Assembly: GCA_947385875.1 (NCBI GenBank)
Contig: CANDMV010000002.1
Coordinates: 1 to 64,000 of the forward strand
Length of the DNA: 64,000 bases
Reading direction: 5' to 3'
DNA from: an uncultured Eubacterium sp.
Lineage (GTDB): Bacteria; Bacillota; Clostridia; Lachnospirales; Lachnospiraceae
Of the stretch, positions 25,945 through 61,128 are shown one piece after another; within the stretch, counting starts at the first letter, position 1, and the number at the start of each line of letters is the position of its first letter. A program made the position numbers and the translations under genes. The notes below the pieces were generated by a model. The model worked only from the letters and a program-made list of their open reading frames with translations, was not told where the DNA came from and ran no database searches.

Positions 25945-26136
25945 AAAAAGTATCCCCAAAATGCCGGTCCCACAATTTTGACTCCTAGCAAAGCTAGGTG
26001 GGTAACCTCAATGAAGCTTCTGCCTTCCACTGCGTAATGATGGCCTGACATCCACTTCAAGATCTTGGAATCCCATAAAAGTAAATGTAGGTTCAAAATA
26101 GCAGGTTATCGCACACCTCAGGTAAATACTTTTTAT
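25945..26136 (-). ncRNA. ssrS: Likely 6S RNA
   Basis: A transcript of about 192 nt whose ends pair: AAAAAGTAT at the 5' end (26126-26134) and ATACTTTTT at the 3' end (25945-25953). Inside, CCTGAGGTG can pair with CATTTTGGGG, and CTATTTTGA with TCAAAATTG. A small apical hairpin CCTAGC-TTT-GCTAGG is present. The long rod with a central open region fits 6S RNA, which binds sigma-70-type RNA polymerase in stationary phase. A strong promoter lies at the right distance. The short frame across it on the minus strand has no family match. Identification is by recall of pattern, not by covariance search. Confidence 0.72.
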
Positions 26137-43305: not shown

Positions 43306-43334
43306 TAAATTTTATTTGAGTTTCTGTCCTTTTG

Positions 43335-43597
43335 TTAAAGTTCAGCCTTCGACTTCACTGTAACGGAATCCAGCTCATTGAAAGTTCGCCTTTGGCGAAG
43401 TGCCGGATTCCCTCTTGGCATAATTTACACGTTCTTACGTACTTTGCAGCTGATGTAAAGTACTGGGCTGAACTGTTACTTTCTTTTCACACCCAATATC
43501 ATTAACCTGAGATTTTCACAGCTAGAGACAGAAGCTTCTGTCCCGCGTCTTAGTCGGAATTAGCGACCAGCTGCTTGGTCTAGGCGTGAAAAGTACC
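43335..43597. mobile_element. Family D element followed by a divergent family C element
   Basis: 43335-43482 is an inverted copy of the element at 28636, with AGTTCAGCC and GGCTGAACTGTTAC ends. It is followed directly by TTTTCACACCC...GGCGTGAAAAGTA (43488-43595), which has family C ends but a different interior. With the ilvN leader it fills the 43158-43607 gap. Confidence 0.65.
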
Positions 43598-43607
43598 GAA
43601 TTTTTTC

Positions 43608-43793
43608 CTATTTTATTGCAGGTATTGTATTCATACTCCTTCGCACTGCCTCTATTTCGGACTGTGCATATCCGCAGAAATCAGAAATCTGCCGCACTGT
43701 CTTCCCATTTCTAAGCATATATTCGATGTCTTTTTTCCGTCCTTCCTCACGTCCTTCGCGTCTTGCGTCCATTTCATATGCTTGCCACGTCAT
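43608..43793 (-). pseudogene. C-terminal remnant of an Rpn-type nuclease/transposase
   Basis: The 61-codon frame MTWQAYEMDARREGREEGRK followed by a short helical tail matches the charged C-terminal linker and tail typical of Rpn family (PD-(D/E)XK) proteins as remembered. Upstream, the frame continues for about 14 codons (YKEWEVEYM) to a stop, and the nuclease domain is missing. A GGAGG sits before the internal ATG, probably by chance. Confidence 0.55.
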
Positions 43794-44008: not shown

Positions 44009-45517
44009 TTAATATCTCTTAATTTTTTTAGAAGGTGTCTTTTCAAATTCCGTCTCACGGACTTTCAAGCTGTATACTTTCTTATAAGCCGGAGCCTCGT
44101 CATTATATCTATCAATAATCTCCTGGAGCGCAGCCCTTATGTCTGTAATTCCCTGTTTCCCGGCATATTCATAATCCGGGAAGATTTCTGCTTCAATCAC
44201 GCCCTGTGCGTCACGGACAAGGATTTCCTGTACCAGACGGGCAGAACCGATTTTATTTTCCAGTTCTTCCGGAGATACGTTTTCGCCATTTTTCGTAATA
44301 ATCAGATTCTTTAGCCGTCCGGTCAGATGGATATAATTGTCTTCATCCACATATCCTAAGTCACCGGTACGCAGCCAGCCATCCACTAACGTCTCGCCTG
44401 TCTCCTGCGGCATTTTATAATATCCCTGCATTACGCTGCTGCCGCGAACCCAGATCTCGTTGTCTACGACTTTGGCTGCACAGTTCGGCATCAGCTTGCC
44501 TACGGTATCTTTTCTAAGGTCCCAGCTCAGATTTGTACTAATGACAGGCGCGCACTCTGTCATGCCATACCCCTGCAGGATTGTAATGCCATAGCTTTCA
44601 AACAGGTCGATGAGTTCCGGATTCAGATAAGCGCCTCCGCTGCAGATTGTATGGAGTTTTTCTCCGAACACTTCCTTTTTTACAATTTCTTTTGGCAGCC
44701 CGGCTGTTTCTTCCAGTTTTTTAGCAAGTGTTTCGATCATAAGCGGCACCATCAGAATCATATCCGGCTGAAAAAGCTTCATATTTTTGGCAACACGTAT
44801 TAAAGAATCGTTAATACAGATAATGCTTCCAAGAGAGATTCCTTTTAATATATCCATACTCAGACAATAAGCATGATGAATTGGAAGAACGGATAAAATC
44901 GTAGTCCTAGGAGGAATCTTCATATCGAGACAGGTCGCATTTTCAGCTAGATTTCTCTGAGTAAGCATAACGCCCTTGCTTTTTCCCGTTGTGCCGGAAG
45001 TAAACATGATGGTACACAGCGCTTCCGGGTTTGCCCAGTGGTCAAATGCACCTGCATGTTCCTGAATCAGCTCGCTGTATGACAACACTTCATCTGTACT
45101 CTTTTCCTGCTGCATGGATATCACATATTTTAACTGCGGACAGCGTTTTTTTACAATCGCCATGACATCCTTGCGCACCTCGTCGACGACAAACACAGAT
45201 GCATCCGCACGGTCAATCAGCTCGCACATTTCTTCGGCCGGAAGGGATACATCCAGAGGAACTGCCACGCTGCCGCTGTTTACCGTGCCTAAGTATGTAA
45301 CCAGCCACGGATAAGAGGTCATGCCCGTTAGAGCAATCTTATTTCCCTGCTCACCCAGCGCCTTTACGACGCAGGAAAAGCTTTCACTGTCCTGCTTCAG
45401 CTGTGTATAAGATTTTGCCTCGATCACATCTTTTTTTACTTTATAGCGGATTGCATCCTCTGCACCAAATTCTTGTTCTGAACGAACGATAATATCCCGA
45501 ATTGTATTGCAAATCAT
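44009..45517 (-). CDS. AMP-forming acyl-CoA/acyl-ACP ligase
   Basis: Adenylate-forming enzyme of 502 residues. Motifs: IMFTSGTTGKSKGV (ATP loop), GYGMTECAP, RTGDLGYVDEDNYIHLTGRLKN (hinge), and the C-terminal catalytic lysine in SKKIKRY. The start at 45517 follows AGGAGG. It is the last gene of a run with a free ACP, a condensation protein, a hydrolase and an SCP2 protein. Activating a fatty acid and loading it on that ACP is the natural inference. Substrate cannot be read from sequence. A 178-bp gap separates it from the ACP gene. Confidence 0.88.
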   Translation of the reverse strand: MICNTIRDIIVRSEQEFGAEDAIRYKVKKDVIEAKSYTQLKQDSESFSCVVKALGEQGNKIALTGMTSYPWLVTYLGTVNSGSVAVPLDVSLPAEEMCELIDRADASVFVVDEVRKDVMAIVKKRCPQLKYVISMQQEKSTDEVLSYSELIQEHAGAFDHWANPEALCTIMFTSGTTGKSKGVMLTQRNLAENATCLDMKIPPRTTILSVLPIHHAYCLSMDILKGISLGSIICINDSLIRVAKNMKLFQPDMILMVPLMIETLAKKLEETAGLPKEIVKKEVFGEKLHTICSGGAYLNPELIDLFESYGITILQGYGMTECAPVISTNLSWDLRKDTVGKLMPNCAAKVVDNEIWVRGSSVMQGYYKMPQETGETLVDGWLRTGDLGYVDEDNYIHLTGRLKNLIITKNGENVSPEELENKIGSARLVQEILVRDAQGVIEAEIFPDYEYAGKQGITDIRAALQEIIDRYNDEAPAYKKVYSLKVRETEFEKTPSKKIKRY

Positions 45518-45694
45518 AGTTTCTTCCTCCTTTTTTCTGTCAGGTCTGTGAACCGCTGTGAACAAATAAGTTTTCCAAATTCATTGAAGTTCGGCGTAAA
45601 TGCAAAGCTGGAAAGGACAGCTCCTGACAGAACTACAATAACTGCTTCCTATCTATCGTAACAGTCCAGACCAGCTGACCTGTTACTGCCTGTT

Positions 45695-45925
45695 TTATTC
45701 TGCGGATAATTTTTCCAGATAATCAACTGCTTCCTGTACGGTACGAATCTTGGCTGCTTCCTGCTGGTCTATTTCAATGTCAAATTCATCCTCCAACTCG
45801 CCGAGCATACTCATAAAATCAAAAGATGTAAACATAAGGTCTTCCATAAACCGTGATTCCGGCTTCACCTGAGACGGTTCAACCTCTACATAATTACTGA
45901 TTATTTCAGCTAATTTTTCAAACAT
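45695..45925 (-). CDS. Free-standing acyl/peptidyl carrier protein
   Basis: The 76-residue four-helix carrier is acidic. The phosphopantetheine-accepting serine is Ser34 in DLMFTSFDFMSM, where Thr-Ser replaces the usual Asp-Ser. The start at 45925 follows AAGGAAAG; the upstream in-frame start contains that RBS. It sits between the condensation-domain gene (50 bp upstream) and the acyl ligase, not near fatty acid synthase genes, so it is probably dedicated to this pathway. Confidence 0.88.
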   Translation of the reverse strand: MFEKLAEIISNYVEVEPSQVKPESRFMEDLMFTSFDFMSMLGELEDEFDIEIDQQEAAKIRTVQEAVDYLEKLSAE

Positions 45926-45974
45926 TTTCACTTTCCTTCTTTCCATATATAAAACTCTGCCAAAACTGTTACTG

Positions 45975-47378
45975 CTAGATCAGCTTTATAATATCACCGA
46001 CCGGCAGGTTCGGATTCTCAATTCCTTTAAACATGATTTTACACAGATAGTAATACAAATATTCCAGTTCCTTTCTGCTCACTGCACGAATCTGATGCTC
46101 AAAATTAAAGTCCAGCCCATTATCCTCCGGGCGATGCATAACTGTCAGATACATTCCCTGCGTTGTTGCTCCATTCGAATACCATTTTGTCTTATACTGG
46201 ATCCCGTTCAGCTTATCCAGGCCATTTTCCTGAAGAGTCATTGGCTGATAAGTCAATGCCATAGGCTCATAGGTCTGTCCCGGCTCTACCGGATAAAGCT
46301 TGCTGCGGTATGCAAAATATTCTACCGGATCATAATTTGCGTGCCTAAACATCTCATTTTGTTTATCACGAATCTCATAGATCGCATCAATAAAGCTCCG
46401 CTCCAGAGGAATAATTGTACGGAACGGGAACGAATGAATCCTTGTGCCGCCTGATTTTTTCTCCTTCAGAGTCGCTCTTCTGGCAATCGCCGTATTGATG
46501 GATACATCATCATTTCCGTTCATTTTCTGAAAATAAGTACGCAGCCCCATCAGCAGCAGGCAGGTCAGGGATACATGATATTTCTCGCAGAAGCTCATCA
46601 GGCGCTTGGTCGGTTCTTCTTCCAGATGAAACGTATCTATTTCCGCATCGACAGAATCAGATACATTTATTGCCGCACGAAGTTTCGGATTTCCGGATCT
46701 TTCACGCTCCATTTCCAGTCTTCCGCTTCCATTAATACCATTATAAATCGGTTCTGATTCTTCAATCAGCTTATGGAAATATTCCTCATCACGCGCCTTT
46801 GCTTTGCTTCCATCCTCATAAGCCAGGTCTTTTTGAATCTGATCGATATAAGAAGCCATATCCTTAGGATATGGTACATCATTATACACTCTGCTGCAGT
46901 AAAGCTCAATAATATCTCTCAAAAATCCAATCAAAGACTGCGCGTCCATAAGCCTGTGGTCAGCCAGCAGATATACTCCGTTAAATCCATCCGGCGTATG
47001 AATCATGACAATCCGATTCATCGGGATTTCTTCTTTTACAAAAGGCACCCTTGTCCAGCTCTTCATAACCGCTTCTGCTTCTTCCATCGTCTGTCCGCTG
47101 AAATCTACAAACTCAATCTCTCGTTCTTCTTTCTCTACGACATACTGATACCAATTTCCTTCTTTATCCGATACAAAACGCACACGCATACATTCATTTC
47201 GATCGTAGGCCTCATAAATACTCTCTTTTAATATATTCCAGTCAAGATCCACCTGAATCGTCAGGCTCGTGCCAATATTCAGCACTTCCTTTTTCGGAGA
47301 AAACTTTAGATAATAAAAATGAAATTTCTGTGCTTTCGTCAGAGGATATACTTGATATCCTTTTCTCGTTTTCATCAT
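45975..47378 (-). CDS. Free-standing NRPS-type condensation protein
   Basis: The 467-residue member of the condensation/CAT-like acyltransferase superfamily contains a single C domain. N-terminal YPLTKAQKFHFYYL fits the C1 region. The HHxxxDG motif appears as DHRLMDA (residues 140-146), keeping the second histidine and the aspartate. A C-terminal half resembling the second CAT-like lobe follows. Its ATG overlaps the hydrolase stop by 4 bp, indicating translational coupling. Likely transfers an ACP-bound acyl group to an amine or alcohol acceptor; the acceptor is unknown. Confidence 0.8.
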   Translation of the reverse strand: MMKTRKGYQVYPLTKAQKFHFYYLKFSPKKEVLNIGTSLTIQVDLDWNILKESIYEAYDRNECMRVRFVSDKEGNWYQYVVEKEEREIEFVDFSGQTMEEAEAVMKSWTRVPFVKEEIPMNRIVMIHTPDGFNGVYLLADHRLMDAQSLIGFLRDIIELYCSRVYNDVPYPKDMASYIDQIQKDLAYEDGSKAKARDEEYFHKLIEESEPIYNGINGSGRLEMERERSGNPKLRAAINVSDSVDAEIDTFHLEEEPTKRLMSFCEKYHVSLTCLLLMGLRTYFQKMNGNDDVSINTAIARRATLKEKKSGGTRIHSFPFRTIIPLERSFIDAIYEIRDKQNEMFRHANYDPVEYFAYRSKLYPVEPGQTYEPMALTYQPMTLQENGLDKLNGIQYKTKWYSNGATTQGMYLTVMHRPEDNGLDFNFEHQIRAVSRKELEYLYYYLCKIMFKGIENPNLPVGDIIKLI

Positions 47379-48319
47379 TTCATAACTCCTTCCAAAAATT
47401 CCGTCATCGCATTCTCATAAGCTTCCATATCTTTATAGTAGCTTTCAGCATGAGCTGCGTCTTTTATAATTAATTTTGTCACCTTAGAGCCGCAGTTTTG
47501 TTCGATTTCATCACACATTGCGCATGGCACAAAGGTATCTGCATCCCCATGAATCAGCAGAATCGGAACCTGTGCATTACGCACTTCTCTGGCAGCATTA
47601 CATTCGTCCAGTCCGTAGCCCGCTTTTTTGCGGTTCATATAATCGGTAATCTGCATCATTGGAACTGCGGGTATATGGTACATGGTATGCAGCACATGCG
47701 TAAATACCTGCTTCGGTGAAGTAAACGCACAGTCTGAAATAATCCCCTTTACCTGTTTTGGCAGCTTCAGCCCGCTTGTCATCAATACTGTAGAACCACC
47801 CATAGAAATGCCGTGCATCACAATCTGCACATCCTCGCCGCACCGCTCAATCACCCAGTCAATCCATGAACAGGCGTCTACGCGGTCCAGACATCCAAAT
47901 CCAATGTATTCTCCTTCGCTCTGACCATGTGCCCTCTGGTCTACCAGCAGCAGACTGTACCCCCGCTGCAGATAATACGAAGACAGCCCGCAGAAGTCGC
48001 TAGATGCCTGTCCTGTGTATCCATGAAAGCAAATGGCAGTCTTCTTCTCATCCTGCTGCGGAAAATAGATCGCATGAAGCCTCAGCCCGTCACCGGACTG
48101 CTTAAATACATCCTCATGCGGCTGAGCCATCAGATTTTCTCTCCGCTCTCCGATCAGCGGAAAATACTGATTCCAGTCGGTCCCTGCCATCTTCATTGTG
48201 CGTTCAACCTTTGCATTGCTTCTTTTCATAGTCCTGCGGTATAAGTATGCTGAAGCCCCTGCCTCTGCAGCCGCCAGCACTCCTGCCAGCACCGCAGTCT
48301 TTTTTAATAATTTCTTCAT
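47375..48319 (-). CDS. Membrane-anchored alpha/beta hydrolase
   Basis: The 314-residue product has an N-terminal hydrophobic anchor (AVLAGVLAAAEAGASAYLY). The oxyanion region is CFHGYTGQ, the nucleophile Ser is in HGISMGG, the acid is in LLIHGDADTFVP, and the histidine is in KDAAHAESYY. Similar to BAAT/prolyl-oligopeptidase-like hydrolases of the YqkD/FrsA sort. It overlaps the condensation gene by 4 bp. It may release, deacylate or export-process the product of the cluster; that role is inferred from position only. Confidence 0.85.
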   Translation of the reverse strand: MKKLLKKTAVLAGVLAAAEAGASAYLYRRTMKRSNAKVERTMKMAGTDWNQYFPLIGERRENLMAQPHEDVFKQSGDGLRLHAIYFPQQDEKKTAICFHGYTGQASSDFCGLSSYYLQRGYSLLLVDQRAHGQSEGEYIGFGCLDRVDACSWIDWVIERCGEDVQIVMHGISMGGSTVLMTSGLKLPKQVKGIISDCAFTSPKQVFTHVLHTMYHIPAVPMMQITDYMNRKKAGYGLDECNAAREVRNAQVPILLIHGDADTFVPCAMCDEIEQNCGSKVTKLIIKDAAHAESYYKDMEAYENAMTEFLEGVMK

Positions 48320-48461
48320 ATTTCTCCATTTCCGGGCAATTTGATCCCCAGCGTACTGTTTCAGCTTAATTACGCGAGATATAATTCACCTAAATATAAT
48401 TGATACAGTACACTATAGCGTATTTGAAACTGCAAAATAAGACTCTGTATTTTTTGCTTTT

Positions 48462-48797
48462 TTATTTCTTCTTTTTGCTTTGAATGAACTCTTTTAACTT
48501 TAATGCTTTGCCGATATCTCCTTCTACCTTGAGCTTCTGCAGAGTAACCGCAGCTACCGGATCAAGCTTTCCAGACGCAATCTTCATAAATGTCTCCGCC
48601 TTGCCGGTAAACATCGCATCCCTGTCATAATATTCATACGGCTCGACATATAACACGCCTTCCTTTACTTCTACATAAAAGATGCCCTCCGCATCCCCAA
48701 CAATATTGAACTGGTATGCCAGATGCTCTGTCACATCGCTCACATCAGCCTCCATAAACTTGCCTTTAATCTCTGAAAAAAAATCTGCGTATGTCAT
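48462..48797 (-). CDS. SCP2 sterol-carrier-like lipid-binding protein
   Basis: The 111-residue product has the SCP2 fold pattern (strand-rich middle, FYVEVKEGVLYVEPY; helix FTGKAETFMKIASGKLDPVAAV; basic tail KSKKKK-like QSKKKK). Family members bind lipids or acyl chains in a hydrophobic tunnel. The start at 48797 follows GGAGG. It is the first gene of the acyl cluster and has two operator-like dyads in its leader, implying control by the divergent TetR protein. Confidence 0.8.
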   Translation of the reverse strand: MTYADFFSEIKGKFMEADVSDVTEHLAYQFNIVGDAEGIFYVEVKEGVLYVEPYEYYDRDAMFTGKAETFMKIASGKLDPVAAVTLQKLKVEGDIGKALKLKEFIQSKKKK

Positions 48798-48817
48798 ATT
48801 TAATCCTCCATTTTCTC

Positions 48818-48881
48818 TTTCGACCATAAGTCGATTTATCTTTTCCATTACATTAACATTTATTCGACCATTGGTCAATTA
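48818..48881 (-). promoter_or_regulatory. Promoter and two operator-like dyads of the acyl cluster
   Basis: TTCGACCATAAGTCGATTT (48819-48837) and TTCGACCATTGGTCAATTA (48863-48881) share TTCGACCAT-N2-GTC(G/A)A. On the minus strand the second overlaps a -35 TTGACC with TAATGT 17 bp on, and the first lies downstream of the start site. This is the usual layout for TetR-type repression, and tetR is the next gene upstream. Confidence 0.65.
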
Positions 48882-48984
48882 GTATTATTAAAAAAAATTA
48901 CCAAATATTAAATTATTTTCTGTGAACATTTTTATAATCAGGTATGTTATAATTGATTTGTTTATTTTTGCATGATCTTTGGTT

Positions 48985-49045
48985 TACTCACGAGCAATGC
49001 AGTCAGTCTTAATTCCTTTTGCTTGTGAGCCGATTTTAATGATTG
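48985..49045. repeat. Family F element, divergent copy
   Basis: ACTCACGAGCAATGCAG and TGCTTGTGAGCCGATTT match the family F hairpin arms at 32.5 and 58.3 kb. It separates the operators from the tetR start. The rest of 48882-49166 is AT-rich without other features. Confidence 0.55.
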
Positions 49046-49166
49046 CTGGGAGCTGATAAGAAAAAGGCGAGATCTATGGATAGGTTATTTCTTAACAGTT
49101 CCCTAGTATATATTCTTTATTATAGTCAGACATCAGCATAATTATTTATCAGGAAGGCGAAAAGAT

Positions 49167-49778
49167 ATGCCAGACATTTCAAAATATGACAGAATCCTAG
49201 ATGCATTACAAACACTAATGGAAAGCCAAAAACTACAGAATATTACAGTCAGTCAGATCGCGCAGGCTGCCGGCATCGGCAAAGGAAGCATTTATTACTA
49301 TTTTTCTTCAAAAGAAGCTATCCTGCAGGCAATGATTGAACGTAATTATAAAAAGCCGCTGGAAACGGCAAAAGATCTGGCTATGCGGACGGATATCCCG
49401 CCTTTTACGCGTATGGCAATGATTCTTCAGGCATGTCGGAATTCTTCTATCGAATATATGCGCCAGGACGCGTCTACTTCTTCCATCGGCGCACAGGAGC
49501 AGGCTTACCTGCACCAAAAATATGTAAATTATCTGATTAGTGAATTAAAGCCGGAACTGACTGCGATCATTGAACAGGGAATTGAAATTGGAGAAATCCA
49601 TTTTGAATATCCATCTGCACTGGCAGAAATTGTTTTGATTGTACTCACGGTTAAGATCGGGAATCTGCTTCTGCCTTCATCACAGGAAAATATTGAAGAG
49701 ACGATGCGTGCGTTGATTTCATTATTAGAAAAGGGAACGGAAAATCCGGCCGGATCGCTGAATTTCCTATTATCTTAA
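49167..49778 (+). CDS. TetR-family transcriptional regulator
   Basis: The 203-residue product has an N-terminal HTH (ITVSQIAQAAGIGKGSIYYYFSSKEAI). The all-helical C-terminal domain is the usual ligand pocket. AGGAAGGCG precedes the ATG. It is divergent from the SCP2-ligase operon, whose leader carries two TetR-like dyads. Repression relieved by an acyl or acyl-CoA ligand is a reasonable guess from the lipid context, not shown by sequence. Confidence 0.9.
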   Translation: MPDISKYDRILDALQTLMESQKLQNITVSQIAQAAGIGKGSIYYYFSSKEAILQAMIERNYKKPLETAKDLAMRTDIPPFTRMAMILQACRNSSIEYMRQDASTSSIGAQEQAYLHQKYVNYLISELKPELTAIIEQGIEIGEIHFEYPSALAEIVLIVLTVKIGNLLLPSSQENIEETMRALISLLEKGTENPAGSLNFLLS

Positions 49779-49845: not shown

Positions 49846-50072
49846 ATCATGCCCTGTGGGTACAAAGCATAGAGTGCAAATTGCGGGAATGATTTTTCAA
49901 ACACGCTCTAGTGTACTGTCTGCTTGATATTTAGCATAATTACTTGTCTATTTTCCCGATAGCACATATCAAAAATCCTTAACGTAGGCACCACTACGCC
50001 GCGGATTTTTGATATGCACTCTCGGAAAAATATCCTGCGTACTTATACTAAATATCAAGCAGACAGTACACT
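49846..50072. mobile_element. Family A arm abutting a complete family B element
   Basis: 49846-49913 is a family A arm ending CACGCTCTAG. Family B starts at once: CTAGTGTACTGTCTGCTTGA (49910 on) with the matching arm ending CAGTACACTAG at 50073. Inner pair TATCAAAAATCC / GGATTTTTGATATG. CTAG borders both sides. This fills most of the 49779-50158 gap. Confidence 0.8.
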
Positions 50073-50086
50073 AGCTAAAATCCATA

Positions 50087-53074: not shown

Positions 53075-55432
53075 TTACTGCATAGCAGTTGTTTTACACA
53101 ATTCTGCCAATTTCTCGTAAGACGCCTGCTCTGCTTCCAATACTTCTTCAGCGCCAAGCATCTTCAAACAGGCTGTCGTCTTCGGCCCGATGCTAAACAG
53201 TCTGACTCCTTTTTTCCATTCTTCTCTGACCTGCCCTAACAGACGTTCGGCTGAAGACGCGCATGTAAACAAAATCCCATCGTACTCTGACAAAGCACGC
53301 ATTTTTGATAGATCCGGCTCTACCGCCTGATTTTTGTATACTACGATTTCTTCAAATCGGCAGAATCCCAGCAGGGCCCTGACTAGATGTCCGTCAGTAT
53401 TTTCGGCCTGAAGACAGCAGACTTTTTCTGTCCCAGATAACTGCTTTTTTAATACTTCCGCAAGCGCATCGCTGTGAAATCTATCCGGCTTAAGATCTGC
53501 ATACAGTCCATGAGCACCTAGCGCTTCCTCTGTCTTTTTTCCAATCACAGCGATTCTGCATTCAAAGAGGCATCGCATATCCAGCCGTTTTTTCGCACAT
53601 GCGCTAAAAAATGCTTCAACACCATTTTTGCTTGTAAATACCAGCCAGTCTGTATCCGTAAACGTCTCCGCATGAAAGGTGCATTCAGCATTTACGATCT
53701 CTCCTACTTGTATTTCATCCACACATGCGCCCTGTGCATGGAGCATTTCCCGGAGTCTGGTAGATTTTTTCCCTATTTTTGGAATCAGATACCTTCTGCC
53801 AAACAATGGCTTCTGCTCAAAAAAATTCAGCCCTTCTCGCAGCGCGACGACTTCCCCTACTACAATCAGCGCAGGCGGCGTAAATCCTTCCTGCCGCACC
53901 TTTTTTGCAATATGCCAAAGATCAGATATGCATGTTTTCTGCGACAGTGTGGAGGCATTAGAAATCACTGCGATCTTGGTATCCTTCGGCATTCCCGCAT
54001 CCATCAGTCTTCTCGTAATCTCCTCTAATTTGCCAAGACCCATCAAAAATATGCAGGTTTCATTCCCTTTTGCCATCGATTCAAAATCAATATCTGCCAA
54101 TTCATCATTTTTATCATGAGCTGTCACCACGCGAAATCCCTGTGCGATTCCACGATGTGTAACTGGTATTCCCGCATAAGCCGGCCCTGCCGTACTAGAA
54201 GAAATACCCGGTATGATTTCTACGCTTACTCCATGCTCCTTTAAAAACAGCGCTTCTTCGCCGCCGCGTCCAAACACATAGACATCCCCGCCCTTCAGCC
54301 GAACTACTTTTTCATATTCCATGCTTTTATTCAGCAGCAGACTGTTGATTTCTTCCTGCTTCATAGTATGGTTATGACTTGCTTTTCCTGCATAAATCAG
54401 TTCGCATTCCGGCTTTGCAGCTTCCAGCAGCTCTGGTGCAGCCAGCCTGTCATAGATAATGCAGCCAGCTTCCCGTACAGCCTGCATTCCTTTTACCGTA
54501 ATCAGTCCCGGATCTCCCGGCCCTGCTCCGACCAGAGTGACCTTTCCTGTCATCTGCCGGCGGATCCTGTCTGCTGCTTCTTTTGCAAGTCCTTCCCACT
54601 GCTCAGAACATACCTTTACATATGCCTGTCTGCTTCCCGTCTCATTTCCATACATCGCAGCCAGCTGATAGCGCCCGTCTGACAATTTCGTTAAGACTGC
54701 CCCCACCGGCTTATGACAATCGCCGCCGATCAGCTCCAGATATTCTCGTTCTGCTTTCGCAGCCTTCATCGTCTCTTCATCGCTTAATGCATCTAACATA
54801 CTTAAGAGCTGCGTATCGCCCTTACGGATTTCAAGTGCTAAAATCCCCTGTGCAGGTGCTGGAATCATCTGATCGGTTTCTAAATACTGGGTAATCTTAT
54901 CCTGCATTCCCATTCGATGAAGACCTGCGGCTGCCAGCACAATGCCGTCTAACTGCTCTTCTTCCATCTTCCGAAGCCTTGTATCCACATTTCCCCGGAT
55001 ACCTGCAACTTTCAGCTCTGGATTTAACCGCTTTAACTGAAATTCCCTTCGTCTGCTGCCAGTACCGATGACTGCACCTTCAGGCAGCTCCTCCAACGAT
55101 TTTTTTTCACGCAGAATCAACGCATCTCTGGGGTCTTCCCGCATCCAGGCTTTTGCAAACATCAGCCCGGATGCCGGTATGGACGGCATATCTTTCATGC
55201 TGTGTACACCGATGTCTGCTTCATGGTTTAAGATTTTTTCTTCAATTTCCCTGACAAATACACCTTTGTCTCCGATCTCATGCAGCGGTCTGTCCAGCAC
55301 GAGATCTCCCTTCGTCTTTACGATCTGTATTTCAAATTCATGCTTTGGATATACTTCCGCCAGTTTTTTTCGTACATATTCTGCCTGAATCAGCGCCAGC
55401 CTGGAACCTCTCGAAGCTATGATATATTTCAT
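53075..55432 (-). CDS. hemC: Triple fusion: hydroxymethylbilane synthase, uroporphyrinogen-III methyltransferase, uroporphyrinogen-III synthase
   Basis: The 785-residue product has HemC at about 1-296 (ASRGSRLALIQAEYV, GIRGNVDTRLRK, dipyrromethane cysteine Cys239 in GGDCHKPVG). CobA/SirA-type SAM methyltransferase spans about 297-545 (VGAGPGDPGLITVKG, RLKGGDVYVFGRGGEE). HemD is the rest (LVFTSKNGVEAFF, TCASSAERL). One chain would carry porphobilinogen to precorrin-2, the branch to siroheme and cobalamin. The start at 55432 follows GGAGGAGAAC. Downstream of hemA; hemB and the precorrin-2 dehydrogenase are not nearby. Confidence 0.92.
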   Translation of the reverse strand: MKYIIASRGSRLALIQAEYVRKKLAEVYPKHEFEIQIVKTKGDLVLDRPLHEIGDKGVFVREIEEKILNHEADIGVHSMKDMPSIPASGLMFAKAWMREDPRDALILREKKSLEELPEGAVIGTGSRRREFQLKRLNPELKVAGIRGNVDTRLRKMEEEQLDGIVLAAAGLHRMGMQDKITQYLETDQMIPAPAQGILALEIRKGDTQLLSMLDALSDEETMKAAKAEREYLELIGGDCHKPVGAVLTKLSDGRYQLAAMYGNETGSRQAYVKVCSEQWEGLAKEAADRIRRQMTGKVTLVGAGPGDPGLITVKGMQAVREAGCIIYDRLAAPELLEAAKPECELIYAGKASHNHTMKQEEINSLLLNKSMEYEKVVRLKGGDVYVFGRGGEEALFLKEHGVSVEIIPGISSSTAGPAYAGIPVTHRGIAQGFRVVTAHDKNDELADIDFESMAKGNETCIFLMGLGKLEEITRRLMDAGMPKDTKIAVISNASTLSQKTCISDLWHIAKKVRQEGFTPPALIVVGEVVALREGLNFFEQKPLFGRRYLIPKIGKKSTRLREMLHAQGACVDEIQVGEIVNAECTFHAETFTDTDWLVFTSKNGVEAFFSACAKKRLDMRCLFECRIAVIGKKTEEALGAHGLYADLKPDRFHSDALAEVLKKQLSGTEKVCCLQAENTDGHLVRALLGFCRFEEIVVYKNQAVEPDLSKMRALSEYDGILFTCASSAERLLGQVREEWKKGVRLFSIGPKTTACLKMLGAEEVLEAEQASYEKLAELCKTTAMQ

Positions 55433-55433
55433 C

Positions 55434-55570
55434 TGTTCTCCTCCTCCATGTATACAAAACATCTGCCTGATATACCTATATATTCTTTCTGCTCATTCTA
55501 TGTTCTCCTCTATGCATGCAAAACATCTGCCTGATATACCTGTATATTCTTTCTGCTCATTCTCTATATC
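55434..55570. repeat. Tandem duplication covering the hemC ribosome binding site
   Basis: TGTTCTCCTC and AAAACATCTGCCTGATATACC with ATATTCTTTCTGCTCATTCT occur twice, about 66 bp apart (55434 and 55500 onwards). The copy next to the hemC start supplies its GGAGGAGAAC; the second is a spare copy upstream. Confidence 0.8.
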
Positions 55571-55625
55571 CAGAGATCTTCCATGCATTCACGTTCTTTC
55601 TGCTTTTGGCTGCTATTCGCCGGCT

Positions 55626-56858
55626 CTATCTCTCAATCTGAAACAGCTGTTCCACAAAGCGTTTATATTCTTCCTGCTCTTCCACTGTATCCAGACGCTT
55701 CAGCTCACGAATCGGCTCTCTTAACAGTCTTTGAAGCGAAGCGTGGAGCACCTTTTTTAACAGCTTCTGTTCTCTGGCCGACAGCTCCATCTTGCGGTTT
55801 AGATACTCGTAGCTGTCTTCAGCAATCGCGCTGCACCGCTGCTGCAGGGAATCAATCGTAGGATCCATCCGGCTTTGAAGCAGCCAGACAATCGTCTCAC
55901 GCAGTTCTTCTTCAATCATCTTCCGGCTCTTTTCCAACAGACATTCCCTTTCCTTTTTATTATGAGCTACAATTTCCTGAAGCGTATCCAGATTGATCAG
56001 ATGCACCATTGGATCGTCTGCAAACGCAGTATCAATATCCCTTGGTGCCGCAAGGTCCAGAAAAATCAAAGGCTGCTTTGGACAATAATCTGCCCGGCGG
56101 ACAACCAGATGCGGGGAAGCTGTCGCTGATATGACGATATCACATTGCCCCATCATTTGATACCTGTCTTCATATGAGATTATCTCAATATTCTCGAATT
56201 CACTACGAAGCATCCTTGCATGTGCATAAGTCCTGCTGCAGGCAGCTACATGTCCTGCCTGATATTCATAGATATATTTTAAAGCCAGTACGGCTGTCTT
56301 TCCACTCCCGATAACCAAAACCCGTTTTCCTGCAATCCCACAGACTTCATTGAGCCTGCGGATTCCGACATAACTGACGGAGATTGGATTTTCACTAATT
56401 TTTAACTCTGTCTTAATCCGCTTTGCACAGGTGATGGCGTCACGCACGATTTTATTTAATTCTTTCCCGCTGTAGCCCATCGTCCGTGAATAGTCAAGCG
56501 CTTCCTTCACCTGTCCTAAAATCTGATCCTCCCCAAGCACAAGAGATTCCAGCCCTGCCGCAATGCGAAACAGATACGCCATTGCCTCCTCACCCTGAAG
56601 CATGATTAAATATTCCTCTAATGCTACTTCAGGAAACATTTCCTCATAGATTTTTTTAATCTGCTGATTTTTTTCTTCTTCCTCATATAAATAATATACC
56701 TCGCAGCGATTGCAGGTAGATAAGATCATACACTGATCCACCCCGGCAGCTTCCGCTTTTTGAAAAAAATCCAGTTTCATCACATCTGTCATGGATGTCT
56801 GGTCTCTGACAGAAAGCTGTGCATTTTTATAGTTGATCCCTAACAGAGCAAGCTTCAT
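55626..56858 (-). CDS. hemA: Glutamyl-tRNA reductase
   Basis: First enzyme of C5 tetrapyrrole synthesis, reducing Glu-tRNA to glutamate-1-semialdehyde. The 410-residue product has catalytic Cys49 in ILSTCNRCEVYYL, GEDQILGQVKEAL, the NADPH-binding VLVIGSGKTAVLALKY, and the dimerisation helix at the C-terminus. AAGGAGACAG lies ahead of the ATG. Followed 190 bp on by the hemC-cobA-hemD fusion, probably in one transcript. Confidence 0.95.
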   Translation of the reverse strand: MKLALLGINYKNAQLSVRDQTSMTDVMKLDFFQKAEAAGVDQCMILSTCNRCEVYYLYEEEEKNQQIKKIYEEMFPEVALEEYLIMLQGEEAMAYLFRIAAGLESLVLGEDQILGQVKEALDYSRTMGYSGKELNKIVRDAITCAKRIKTELKISENPISVSYVGIRRLNEVCGIAGKRVLVIGSGKTAVLALKYIYEYQAGHVAACSRTYAHARMLRSEFENIEIISYEDRYQMMGQCDIVISATASPHLVVRRADYCPKQPLIFLDLAAPRDIDTAFADDPMVHLINLDTLQEIVAHNKKERECLLEKSRKMIEEELRETIVWLLQSRMDPTIDSLQQRCSAIAEDSYEYLNRKMELSAREQKLLKKVLHASLQRLLREPIRELKRLDTVEEQEEYKRFVEQLFQIER

Positions 56859-56890
56859 AGAATCTGTCTCCTTTTTCTATTGATTCGATG

Positions 56891-56917
56891 AAAAGAAGGA
56901 CTGCGCATTGGCAGTCC
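56891..56917 (-). terminator. Terminator after yeiH-like gene
   Basis: GGACTGC (56898-56904) and GCAGTCC (56911-56917) with a short loop; minus-strand TTCTTTTC follows. It separates the transporter gene from hemA. Confidence 0.7.
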
Positions 56918-56942
56918 CCGTTTATTCAGCGGTCAGCATACT

Positions 56943-57992
56943 TTATCCGATATACCCGGAAAATACAAATGCAAATATATAAGATGAGGCTGCCACGCAT
57001 GCCCATGTAATTCCTCCTAAGGCGATCGGTTTTAACCCTTTGGAAAATACATCTTTGAATTTAATCTTAAATCCTACGCCTGCGAGAGCAGAGGCAAACA
57101 AAAATTTGCTGGCTGTCGTCAAAAGCTTGATTCCTTTTTCTGTGAAAACACCATAAGTATTCAAGCCTGCCATTACTACAAACCAAAGGATGAACATCGG
57201 GAATGTTTTCTTAACTACGACAAATAAACTATCGTTGCTTCCCAGCTCTCCATTGCTTTTTGCTTCACGCGCCATAAGAATCGTCCAGACGATTGCAACG
57301 AAAATCAGCATCGTCGTACGTACCAGCTTTACATTTAAAGCACCGTTAAAATCAGGATTTCCAATCATTGCCTGAAACGTAGCCTGTGCACCGGCTACAG
57401 AAGATGTATCATTAATTGCCGTTCCAGCTACAAATGCAAACTGATTATCTGTAAATCCGATCGCAGGCGCTATGTATGGATAAGAAAATGCAGATATTGT
57501 ATCAAACAGGAAAATTGCTGCCATACCAAATGCAATTTCCGCATCCGTTGCCTTAATAATCGGGCTTAATGTAGCGATTGCCGTACCTCCGCAGATACAA
57601 GTACCGCCGCCTACTAAAACAGACGTATTTTTTGTAACGCCTATTTTTCTGCCTACTAACATAGCTACCGTAAAGGAAAGGAAAATATTAAAGAGAATCA
57701 ATGGGAAAGCCTTGACGCCGGTTCCCAGAATCGCAGAAAAGCTCAGGGTGCCTCCGGTTAAAATAATGCCCCAGTTTAAGAATTTTTTGCTGCTGAAAGT
57801 AGTTCCCTCTTTAAAGTCCTTATCCAGTGTCGGCATGATATTACATATAATCATTGATACCAATAATGCCACCATCGGCCCGCCCATTACTACACGTCCA
57901 AATACGGCGGACTGTAAATCTGTTGATTTTGTTGCCAGAAATCCTATCACCAGGCACAATAAAATTGCGCCGTTTTTTTTCTTTGAATCCAT
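56943..57992 (-). CDS. YeiH/UPF0324 family putative sulfate exporter
   Basis: The 349-residue integral membrane protein has about ten hydrophobic helices. Family signature segments are GGGTCICGGTAIATLSPIIK and TAINDTSSVAGA. The start at 57992 (MDSKKKNG) is chosen on a GAGG 9 bp upstream; the frame could open at a GTG at 58061 with no RBS. The annotation as a sulfate exporter is by family and weak in itself, but its position beside a sulfite reductase-like gene and a CoA-disulfide reductase supports a sulfur-compound role. Confidence 0.82.
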   Translation of the reverse strand: MDSKKKNGAILLCLVIGFLATKSTDLQSAVFGRVVMGGPMVALLVSMIICNIMPTLDKDFKEGTTFSSKKFLNWGIILTGGTLSFSAILGTGVKAFPLILFNIFLSFTVAMLVGRKIGVTKNTSVLVGGGTCICGGTAIATLSPIIKATDAEIAFGMAAIFLFDTISAFSYPYIAPAIGFTDNQFAFVAGTAINDTSSVAGAQATFQAMIGNPDFNGALNVKLVRTTMLIFVAIVWTILMAREAKSNGELGSNDSLFVVVKKTFPMFILWFVVMAGLNTYGVFTEKGIKLLTTASKFLFASALAGVGFKIKFKDVFSKGLKPIALGGITWACVAASSYIFAFVFSGYIG

Positions 57993-58109
57993 ATCAGGAT
58001 GCCTCGTAATCTTTCTATAAAAAGCAGATAACTGCCTTTGCTGCAGTGTGCCAGCCAGCACCTGTGTCAGCTGGCAGCCCCTGCTTTTTTATAAATACAA
58101 TATTATATG

Positions 58110-58412
58110 AATCATCAGATTGCTCCTCCGCTAAGCGGAGTGAACATCTCGATTCAAAGGCTGCTCCCTATCACAGGTGTTCCCCCGCTTAGCAAAGCAA
58201 GCATATGATCCCTTAGTTACCCAGTGCAGGGCACTTTAATTACGGTGTGACCTTTTAGCCGATAGAGCACACTGCTATAAATATTTTGCCTTGCACTGAC
58301 ATGTATCAAACTTTGCTATACTCACGAGCGATGAAATTGCCATATAGATTTTGCACATTAACGCTCGTGAGTCGGCGTTGCCAGCAAGTTTTATTGCTCC
58401 TCAGTATAAATA
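58110..58412. repeat. Short inverted repeats and family F element
   Basis: GCTCCTCCGCTAAGCGGAG (58124-58142) is a small hairpin. 58318-58412 is a well-kept family F copy (ACTCACGAGCGAT, CGCTCGTGAGTCGGCG, TTGCTCCTCAGTATAAA). Nothing coding is seen in 57993-58413. Confidence 0.7.
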
Positions 58413-58413
58413 A

Positions 58414-59364
58414 TCAGCAGGTTGCTCCTCCGACCAAATGTAGCTGTGCGTCTAAAATCTCCTGCTTTCTATCCAAAATATCATTGGAGAGCAGCTGTTT
58501 TTCTACTTCTTCGAAACCAATTCGGCTGATCGTATCTGCAAAACGCTCTCCCGTTTTTCCCTGTTCACGGAACAATAAGATTGCTTTTTCCACCGTATCC
58601 AAAAGCTCTTCTTCTGTCGTAAAGATCCTGGATAATGGCTTGCCCTGCGCCGTTTTCTTGCCCCATCTGCCTCCGATGTAGATACGGAAACCCGGAGTTC
58701 CTTCTTCGATGACATCAAACGGACATTTTTCGACACATCGTCCGCAGTTATTACAACTCTCCGTGTCAATTTTAATCATGTCGTCTTCCATCTTGGCAGC
58801 GCCCATCGGACATGCAGTCTCTACCTGACATTTCTTACAGCCATTGCACATATCCTCATCTACGTTTGGAATCAGCTGGCCCACGATACCCAGATCATTC
58901 AGATCAGGCTTTACGCAGTTATTTGGACATCCGCCTGTTGCAATTTTAAATTTATGCGGAAGTCTTACAGTACGATAGCCTTTATAAAAACGCTCATGAA
59001 TCTTTTCAGCCAGAGCAAAGGTATCATATAAGCCATACTGGCAGGTCGTGCCCTTGCAGGCTACTACCGGGCGTACAAGAGAGCCCGTACCGCCGGTTTC
59101 CAGCCCGGCCTGTGCGAGATATTCACGGAACGGCTCGATATTATCATAATGAATTCCCCGTACTTCTACGGTCAGACGTGTAGTAAATTCCACCTCTCCA
59201 TTTCCATATTTTTGTGCTGCTTCGGCAATGACTTTTGTCTGTTCCGATGTAATCTTGCCATTCACTGTGATGATACGGCCATTAAACAAATCTGTTCCTT
59301 TGTTGTTCAAAAATCCGAGCGCCTTTACTCTTTTGATTTCTTCGGGTTTTAATGTGCATCCCAT
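58414..59364 (-). CDS. Siroheme/4Fe-4S sulfite reductase-like protein with ferredoxin insert
   Basis: The 316-residue product belongs to the AsrC-like sulfite/nitrite reductase superfamily. The siroheme-Fe-S cysteines are Cys103 and Cys108 (CKGTTC) with Cys146 and Cys150 (CPNNC). Two ferredoxin clusters follow: Cys173/176/179/185 and Cys204/207/210/214. GGAGG lies upstream. AsrA and AsrB partners are not adjacent. It probably reduces sulfite to sulfide for cysteine synthesis or disposal, and needs siroheme from the hem genes 2-6 kb away. It also ends in an unusual Cys (GGATC). Confidence 0.82.
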   Translation of the reverse strand: MGCTLKPEEIKRVKALGFLNNKGTDLFNGRIITVNGKITSEQTKVIAEAAQKYGNGEVEFTTRLTVEVRGIHYDNIEPFREYLAQAGLETGGTGSLVRPVVACKGTTCQYGLYDTFALAEKIHERFYKGYRTVRLPHKFKIATGGCPNNCVKPDLNDLGIVGQLIPNVDEDMCNGCKKCQVETACPMGAAKMEDDMIKIDTESCNNCGRCVEKCPFDVIEEGTPGFRIYIGGRWGKKTAQGKPLSRIFTTEEELLDTVEKAILLFREQGKTGERFADTISRIGFEEVEKQLLSNDILDRKQEILDAQLHLVGGATC

Positions 59365-59407
59365 ACTTCTTTTTCCTCCTAAATATTTTTTGTATTTTAT
59401 ATGCTGC

Positions 59408-59455
59408 AGTTCAGCCTTTGATTTGAACAGCCTCAGTCATAGGCTGAACTGTAAC
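59408..59455. repeat. Minimal family D palindrome
   Basis: AGTTCAGCCT (59408-59417) and AGGCTGAACTGTAAC (59441-59455), the ends of the elements at 28.6 and 43.3 kb with almost no interior. It may act as a hairpin between the two sulfur genes. Confidence 0.6.
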
Positions 59456-59505
59456 TTTTTATACAGATTCTATTTGATATAAAATTTGTTTTAATAAATT
59501 CTGTT

Positions 59506-61128
59506 TTATATTGATACTTCGTTAAAGGTAATTCCGCCTTCCAGCACCTTAGTATTCTTATAGCCAAAGAATTTCAGACGGTTCTGCAGCAGATATGCTC
59601 TCTTGCCCTTATTGCATACGAGAAGAATTTTCTCTTCCGGATCCAGACCCTCAATCGGACCTTCTACTGTCGTCAGCTCTACATAAGGCGCACCTTCGAT
59701 CGAAGGCATCAGGCAGCCGTCTACGACTTTGTAGCCTTCTGCCGCTCCGGCAGCATACTCCGCAGGAGTAAATGTCTCAAATTTGCCGTTTATTTTGTTC
59801 ATCAGGACATTCAGTGTATGTTCAAACGGATGAATCGCTGTGGAGAAAGGCGGCGCATAAGCCAGATCCAGATCTGCCAGGTCTGAAAGCGTTCCTTTTA
59901 ACATGATACCTGTTACCGCAATATCTACGACTTTATCTACAGCTCCTGCACCAATTACCTGTACGCCCAAAAGCCTTAAGGAATCTTTGTCAGCAATCAT
60001 TTTAATAATGAAAGTACCTGCTCCCGGATAATAATGTGCCTTATCATCCACTACCGTAATCACACTTACCGGATGGAATCCTTCTTCCACAGCCTGAGCC
60101 TCGGTCAGCCCGGTTCTGCCTACATTCATTCCTGGCAGCTTACATACAGCTGTTCCAAGCGCCCCTCTATAATTCAGACCTGCTCCCATAATATTCTGAG
60201 CAATCAGACGGCCATGAATATTTGCTGTAGATCCCATCGGAGACCATGCCTGTTTTTCTGTCAATGCATTATGTACCATTGCACAGTCGCCTGCTGCGTA
60301 GACATCTGGCAGATTTGTCTCACCAAGAGCATTGGTAAGAATAGTTCCTTTAAACATCTCAAGTCCAGTTCCCTCTAAAAATGCGGTATTCGGACGGATT
60401 CCTGCACTCAGTACTACAAGGTCAGCCTTATACGCCTTCTTGCTCGTCGTAACCTTTTCTACCTTTCCGCTGCCTTCGATTCCGGTTACGGTCACGCCTG
60501 TGACTACCGGGATGCCGCTTTCCTGAAGCTTTCCTTCTACATATTCTGCCATCTCGGCATCAAAGCCCGGCAGCGCATGAGGAGCCATATCCAGTACAAA
60601 CGGACGTACTCCCAGAAGCTTTAAGTTTTCAGCTATTTCCAGACCAATGTAACCTGCGCCGACTACAACCGCGCGCTTGATATTTCCGGCATCCACAACA
60701 TCACGCAGCGCGATTGCATCCTCAGGCGTACGTACAAAGAACACATTTTCTAAGTCACAGCCTTCGATCGGCGGCTTCACCGGGCTTGCTCCTACAGAAA
60801 TAACCAGCTTGTCATAATCATATTCCTTTTCTTCGCCAGTATTCACGTCCCTTGCCGTTACTTTTTTTGCCTGCGGATCTACTTTTACTGCCTCTGTCTC
60901 CGTCAGGACGGTTACACCCGTCAGCTTGGAATATTTTTCAGGTGTATTGACGATCAGCTGCTCTTTGTCTTCGATCACATGACCGACATAATAAGGCAGC
61001 CCGCATCCTGCATAGGAAATATTTTTTCCTTTGTTCAGCACGATGACTTCATTGCCGCGGTCTTCCCTCATCAGCTTTGCGGCAATCTTAGTTCCTGCGG
61101 CAACTCCGCCGAGTACTAATACTTTCAT
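59506..61128 (-). CDS. CoA-disulfide/polysulfide reductase with rhodanese tail
   Basis: The 540-residue flavoprotein has an FAD site GGVAAGTKIAAKL, the single redox cysteine Cys42 in SYAGCGLPYY, and a second dinucleotide fold VVVGAGYIGLEIAENL. The dimerisation domain is followed by a C-terminal rhodanese-like domain (about 450-540, cysteine in LLVCNKGKRAYLL). This matches the CdrR/Npsr type that reduces CoA disulfide or CoA persulfide and polysulfide. GGAGGAAC precedes the ATG. Divergent from a LysR gene. Confidence 0.9.
   Translation of the reverse strand: MKVLVLGGVAAGTKIAAKLMREDRGNEVIVLNKGKNISYAGCGLPYYVGHVIEDKEQLIVNTPEKYSKLTGVTVLTETEAVKVDPQAKKVTARDVNTGEEKEYDYDKLVISVGASPVKPPIEGCDLENVFFVRTPEDAIALRDVVDAGNIKRAVVVGAGYIGLEIAENLKLLGVRPFVLDMAPHALPGFDAEMAEYVEGKLQESGIPVVTGVTVTGIEGSGKVEKVTTSKKAYKADLVVLSAGIRPNTAFLEGTGLEMFKGTILTNALGETNLPDVYAAGDCAMVHNALTEKQAWSPMGSTANIHGRLIAQNIMGAGLNYRGALGTAVCKLPGMNVGRTGLTEAQAVEEGFHPVSVITVVDDKAHYYPGAGTFIIKMIADKDSLRLLGVQVIGAGAVDKVVDIAVTGIMLKGTLSDLADLDLAYAPPFSTAIHPFEHTLNVLMNKINGKFETFTPAEYAAGAAEGYKVVDGCLMPSIEGAPYVELTTVEGPIEGLDPEEKILLVCNKGKRAYLLQNRLKFFGYKNTKVLEGGITFNEVSI

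Follow-up and report, generated by a model that had tools for sequence, protein, structure and literature searches.

A likely lipid-regulated operon for fatty acid amide synthesis by free-standing enzymes in gut Lachnospiraceae

A six-gene locus at positions 44009-49778 of a 64,000-nucleotide stretch of DNA from an uncultured Eubacterium sp. (contig CANDMV010000002.1; the whole stretch is referred to here as the window) is very likely a lipid-regulated operon for the synthesis of fatty acid amides (FAAs), of the type in which ligase, acyl carrier protein (ACP) and condensation protein are all free-standing. The minus strand carries genes for an SCP2-type protein (S), a hydrolase (H), the condensation protein (C), the carrier protein (T) and the ligase (A), and a TetR-family regulator (R) is encoded divergently on the plus strand. 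An earlier note on this DNA had described this set of genes, and all six were confirmed together with their coordinates. The founding paper on FAA clusters of gut Clostridia is reportedly that of Chang et al. 2021, which may already show accessory genes; the Eubacterium rectale cluster is said to make lauroyl-tryptamine.

The assignment is carried mainly by the condensation protein and by the conservation of the locus. C (45975-47378, minus strand, 467 amino acids; Pfam Condensation, 133 bits, 1.4e-38) matched chain A of PDB entry 12KH over its full length (residues 9-466, E = 3e-115), and the next-best chain gave only 7.7e-08. Entry 12KH is OaaC, the condensation enzyme of Coprococcus eutactus, which couples ACP-bound fatty acids to small amines (PMC13142362, data statement). 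Together with OaaA and OaaACP it forms a reconstituted system whose product is oleoyl aminovaleric acid, and which is counted among the FAA clusters from gut Clostridia in Chang et al. 2021 (PMC13142362). C is 40.6% identical to OaaC, and an insertion in OaaC that is absent from ordinary condensation domains aligned with C without gaps. The active-site motif of C, DHRLMDA (residues 140-146), fits the noncanonical pattern of FAA-type enzymes, (D/H)HxxxD followed by Ser, Ala or, less often, Gly, and its length lies inside the range of 300-520 amino acids expected of an FAA-type stand-alone condensation protein. The catalytic His and Asp were invariant in all 121 homologues. Canonical condensation domains of non-ribosomal peptide synthetases (NRPSs) belong to the same Pfam family, PF00668, but have an HHxxxDG motif, are parts of multidomain proteins and are distant from C in the tree. 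In a tree of 65 rows C grouped with OaaC, apart from the canonical NRPS domains, with a branch support of 98; the canonical domains were represented there by three rows only, on long branches. The possibility raised in the earlier note, that C might group with non-NRPS acyltransferases, was rejected, as the best solved match is OaaC and the tree places C in the OaaC family.

Within this family two well-supported clades were distinguished. The OaaC clade (clade 2) contains 16 rows (SH-aLRT 99) and has, with few exceptions, the motif DHxxxDS, whereas in the clade of the window's protein (clade 1) the motif ends in DA in every row (xHxxxDA). Most members of the OaaC clade are 43-56% identical to OaaC, compared with 41% between the clades. 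With its DHRLMDA motif, in place of the DHRxxDS motif of the OaaC subclade, and its position outside the 16-row clade, C is placed by its sequence in a sister clade of the OaaC subtype and not in that subtype. The residue after the catalytic His is highly variable in clade 1 (Met, Leu, Arg or Thr). Among 127 FAA condensation sequences the residue after the motif Asp is Ser in 42%, Ala in 36% and Gly in 17% (PMC13142362). The Ala form of the motif is thus already known from that text, but the split into DS and DA clades is not described there.

The other two core proteins are free-standing and adjoin C, as in the OaaA/OaaACP/OaaC system. A (44009-45517, minus strand, 502 amino acids; Pfam AMP-binding, 206 bits, 1.3e-60) is an adenylate-forming acyl ligase; the ATG at 45517 suffices as its start, and the longer TTG start at 45565 in the list of open reading frames (ORFs) is unneeded. 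Its A3 motif (TSGTTGKSKG), TGD motif and C-terminal Lys were kept in approximately 107-113 of 114 homologues. The nearest NCBIfam model was the long-chain fatty-acid-CoA ligase PRK06187, at 243 bits, below its cut-off. T (45695-45931, minus strand, 78 amino acids; Pfam PP-binding, 39 bits, 7.4e-10) scored above the cut-off of the NCBIfam acyl carrier protein model, and its phosphopantetheine-bearing Ser, in the sequence FTSFDF, was invariant in 115 of 115 homologues. Two genes of the phosphopantetheinyl-transferase type (ACPS) lie elsewhere in the genome. The unit contains neither an acceptor carrier domain nor an amino-acid adenylation domain.

The gene order was compared across 80 named GTDB loci and 40 further stretches, with some genomes present in both sets. 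The complete order, a divergent R followed by S, H, C, T and A, was found in 69 loci; the remainder were mostly cut by contig ends or lacked S or R. As the homologues are related by descent, these locus counts are not independent events. The recurrence of an identical order in 69 loci indicates that the arrangement is not due to chance. C was present in 13 of 13 genomes searched of the window's genus. A wider occurrence of the unit, as a general feature of Firmicutes, was rejected, since among 398 genomes sampled from the whole phylum (few of them Lachnospiraceae) a match to C was obtained only in the window's own. By these comparisons the six genes form a strongly conserved unit across gut Lachnospiraceae. 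The co-occurrence of the five genes in other genomes, on which the earlier note had made its proposal depend, was therefore borne out, with the TetR gene included. Because C groups with the OaaC family and the five genes and R co-occur in order, synthesis of an N-acyl amide or related lipid, as the earlier note had proposed, is the best reading of the locus; its product is assigned by homology.

H (47375-48319, minus strand, 314 amino acids) was identified by Pfam and by its AlphaFold model as a membrane-anchored alpha/beta serine hydrolase, and its reading frame shares four bases (ATGA) with that of C. The catalytic triad consists of the nucleophile Ser172 (in GxSMG), Asp261 and His290, all of them invariant in a 35-row alignment and kept in nearly all rows of the larger homologue set (approximately 110 homologues across A, T, C and H). 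The model (pLDDT 90) has an esterase-like fold with an N-terminal helix at residues 2-30. The best Foldseek match was the esterase Pf2001 (E = 1.7e-17), followed by monoglyceride lipase and feruloyl esterase folds, and there was weak similarity to an N-acyl-homoserine lactonase family. This fold is compatible with esterase, thioesterase, lipase or amidase activity alike. A survey of 397 Lachnospiraceae genomes detected H (at least 53% identity) in precisely the 39 that carry a DA-type C, and the other 358 all lacked it (Fisher 6e-55, a value that ignores shared ancestry). This one-to-one relation indicates that H belongs to the DA subtype of amide operon.

S (48462-48797, minus strand, 111 amino acids; Pfam SCP2, 50 bits, 2.9e-13) is encoded by the gene that opens the operon. 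Its start is likely to be the ATG at 48797, which is preceded by GGAGG; this start is favoured because the TTG at 48878 given in the ORF list sits within the operator/-35 element described below. The AlphaFold model of S has an SCP2 fold (pLDDT 91), and Foldseek matched it to solved SCP2 structures including the palmitate-bound AeSCP-2 (1pz4). S resembles the lipid carriers rabbit SCP2 (1c44) and mosquito AeSCP-2 in fold (Foldseek E approximately 1e-5) and in its match to the SCP2 profile, but is only about 18-24% identical to them, is bacterial and is encoded in an operon. In the same 397 genomes S (at least 54% identity) was present in 37 of the 39 with a DA-type C and in 14 others without C, which weakens the case for S as an obligate part of the pathway. 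In several of these 14, R and S stand together with the same tandem operator and without adjoining H, C, T or A (loci L160, L165 and L173), and in some other genomes S stands alone. The free-standing R-S pairs indicate that R and S form a unit of their own which the amide genes share, on this evidence an independent small SCP2 regulon. The earlier note had treated S and H alike as accessory parts. This does not hold for H, which is no loose accessory given its strict pairing with DA-type C, and S appears to be linked more to the TetR gene than to the enzymes.

R (49167-49778, plus strand, 203 amino acids; Pfam TetR_N, 1.4e-12) adjoins S divergently in most clade 1 loci. A pair of TYGACCRNYGGTCGAA copies with a spacing of 43-45 bp (about 44 bp) was found in 65 of the 74 R-S gaps from loci with both genes, and did not occur in any of 14,800 versions of these gaps randomised with a first-order Markov model. 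In the window, copy 1 (GACCAATGGTC on the minus strand, 48866-48876) overlaps the -35 hexamer of a putative promoter, and copy 2 (GACTTATGGTC on the minus strand, 48822-48832) lies just downstream of the predicted transcription start. The promoter itself (48850-48878, minus strand) would consist of a -35 element TTGACC (48878-48873), a 17-bp spacer and an extended -10 element TGTTAATGT (hexamer 48855-48850). A -10-like hexamer followed TYGACC after 16-18 bp in 62 of 64 homologous sites, compared with approximately 33% of shuffles. A generic promoter scan performed at chance level (17 found, 17.5 expected) and did not pick the window's site, and the promoter assignment therefore rests on conservation across loci. 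The putative operator and -35 element have the layout of a repressor that blocks its own promoter, and the adjacency of the R gene makes R the candidate binder. A genome-wide search found no second operator pair in the window's genome. OaaC-type loci differ from the window's operon, which has S, H and a different TetR with the tandem operator; no operator pair was found in the windows of clade 2 loci, and no SCP2 gene was found beside a DS-clade C. The tandem operator, as defined by these alignments, is new here. In two loci of the genus Blautia (L184 and L187) three operator copies stand in a row with a spacing of about 44 bp.

These observations suggest the following pathway. A would activate a free fatty acid with ATP and load it onto the phosphopantetheine arm of T, and C would transfer the acyl chain from acyl-T to a small free amine, so that an acceptor carrier protein would not be needed; both steps are modelled on the reconstituted OaaA/OaaACP/OaaC system. 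S, judging from its fold, would keep the fatty acid or lipid product in the cytosol. H, tied to the membrane by its single helix, would be a fixed partner of the DA-type C, and most likely either frees fatty acids from membrane esters to feed A or hydrolyses the product or stalled acyl intermediates. R would act as a repressor, with two dimers presumed to bind the conserved tandem operator on either side of the transcription start; a lipid, which might be a fatty acid or a sterol, would release it.

Several observations weigh against this interpretation. A reaches the curated cut-off of no specific NCBIfam ligase model; S and R occur without the enzymes, so that neither is specific to an amide pathway; and C, at 41% identity to OaaC and in another clade, may use a different acceptor, for which an amino acid or alcohol would in principle do. 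A product other than an amide of a biogenic amine, such as an acyl ester, an N-acyl amino acid or another acyl conjugate, would agree with the distinctness of clade 1 and with the variable residue after its catalytic His, which suggests varied acceptors. The dedicated hydrolase, which the OaaC clade does not closely share, is a hint of different chemistry. We consider such a product unlikely, as the FAA condensation domains exclude proteogenic amino acids, in a set that includes members with the Ala motif (PMC13142362), and the acceptor carrier and amino-acid adenylation functions are missing from the unit. For H, it is conceivable, though rather doubtful, that it is an amidase degrading the operon's own or the host's fatty acid amides, which would make the operon a module for both synthesis and degradation. 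The co-occurrence and translational overlap of H with C, its membrane anchor, the monoglyceride-lipase-like fold among its matches and the weak lactonase similarity are all consistent with this, but its nearest solved relatives are esterases and its fold cannot tell these activities apart. We regard as a possibility of somewhat greater weight, yet still a minority view, that S and R were recruited from a response to lipid stress in general and are not directly involved in making the amide. The separate R-S units with the same operator pair, and the occurrence of S alone, argue for it; the presence of S in nearly all clade 1 genomes and its place at the head of the enzymes' own transcription unit argue against it.

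A further alternative comes from Blautia hominis, in which a cholesterol-induced SCP2-like protein, RS03310, has a condensation protein two locus tags away, RS03300, as its predicted partner (PMC13029680). A sterol pathway was proposed for the pair, and RS03310 was described as a cholesterol-binding or oxidising factor, with no link to FAA synthesis (PMC13029680, 2026). By analogy the present operon might chiefly handle sterols, with S binding or transforming cholesterol and C acting in a sterol-modifying pathway. The pocket residues listed in that paper (I10, Y28, F30, L101 and F104) do fall in register on the window's S, and G21/I22 are present in a Blautia homologue (L190). We nevertheless find a sterol-handling unit highly improbable, because C, T and A form an OaaC-type acyl-to-amine set in a unit without a sterol oxidoreductase, SCP2 folds are lipid carriers with no known NAD site, and the activity reported for RS03310 (approximately 5.7 nmol/min/mg) came from refolded protein and its reported Kd of 0.56 mg/ml is weak (PMC13029680). 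The B. hominis protein, at about 20.6 kDa, is also larger than the S proteins found here. Sampled Blautia genomes show the order S-H-C, and RS03310 is probably the first gene of this same FAA operon, whose amide genes went unrecognised; this identification is made from gene arrangement and pocket residues, and the size difference and the large Blautia genomes sampled without a close S speak against it. If it holds, the cholesterol induction of RS03310 is probably a hint about the signal of R. A literature search on SCP2, condensation protein and TetR regulons returned nothing beyond PMC13029680.

Other features were noted around the operon. At 49908-50074 is an element resembling a miniature inverted-repeat transposable element, in which an inner palindrome is flanked by outer inverted repeats of 36 nt with 94% complementarity; elsewhere in the genome it has two more copies that are nearly identical, and dozens of partial matches. 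Downstream of the operon lie a second inverted-repeat element with 25-nt arms of 72% complementarity (43334-43479) and, beyond A, a 61-amino-acid ORF (43608-43793, minus strand) with no Pfam or NCBIfam match, which by eye looks like the C-terminal end of a nuclease of the Rpn/PD-(D/E)XK type and is perhaps a gene remnant. A 6S RNA was found at 25949-26127 on the minus strand (Rfam RF00013, 74.3 bits). The region 53075-61128 is apparently a siroheme and sulfite-reduction block, in which a 795-amino-acid protein, by eye a fusion of HemC, uroporphyrinogen methyltransferase and HemD, adjoins a HemA-like gene, a YeiH-family transporter and proteins resembling sulfite reductase and CoA-disulfide reductase.

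Fatty acid amides of gut Clostridia act on human receptors, and the sources covered here describe the three core proteins only. The operon probably makes host-hormone-like lipids upon a lipid signal. A more speculative and, in our judgement, unlikely extension would be that the DA operon is a self-contained system responsive to host lipids, in which a host or dietary lipid frees R, S carries the lipid, A, T and C conjugate fatty acids to an amine, and H breaks down or recycles the product; this would be a bacterial parallel to the mammalian make-and-break cycle of N-acyl amides, in about 1 in 10 Lachnospiraceae species. For Blautia, the operon offers another reading of the cholesterol-induced SCP2 protein, in which it is not a sterol oxidase but is encoded by the leading gene of an amide operon. 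The conserved promoter and operator pair, together with the repressor and the hydrolase dedicated to the operon, bring the timing of amide production and the limits on its level within reach of tests.
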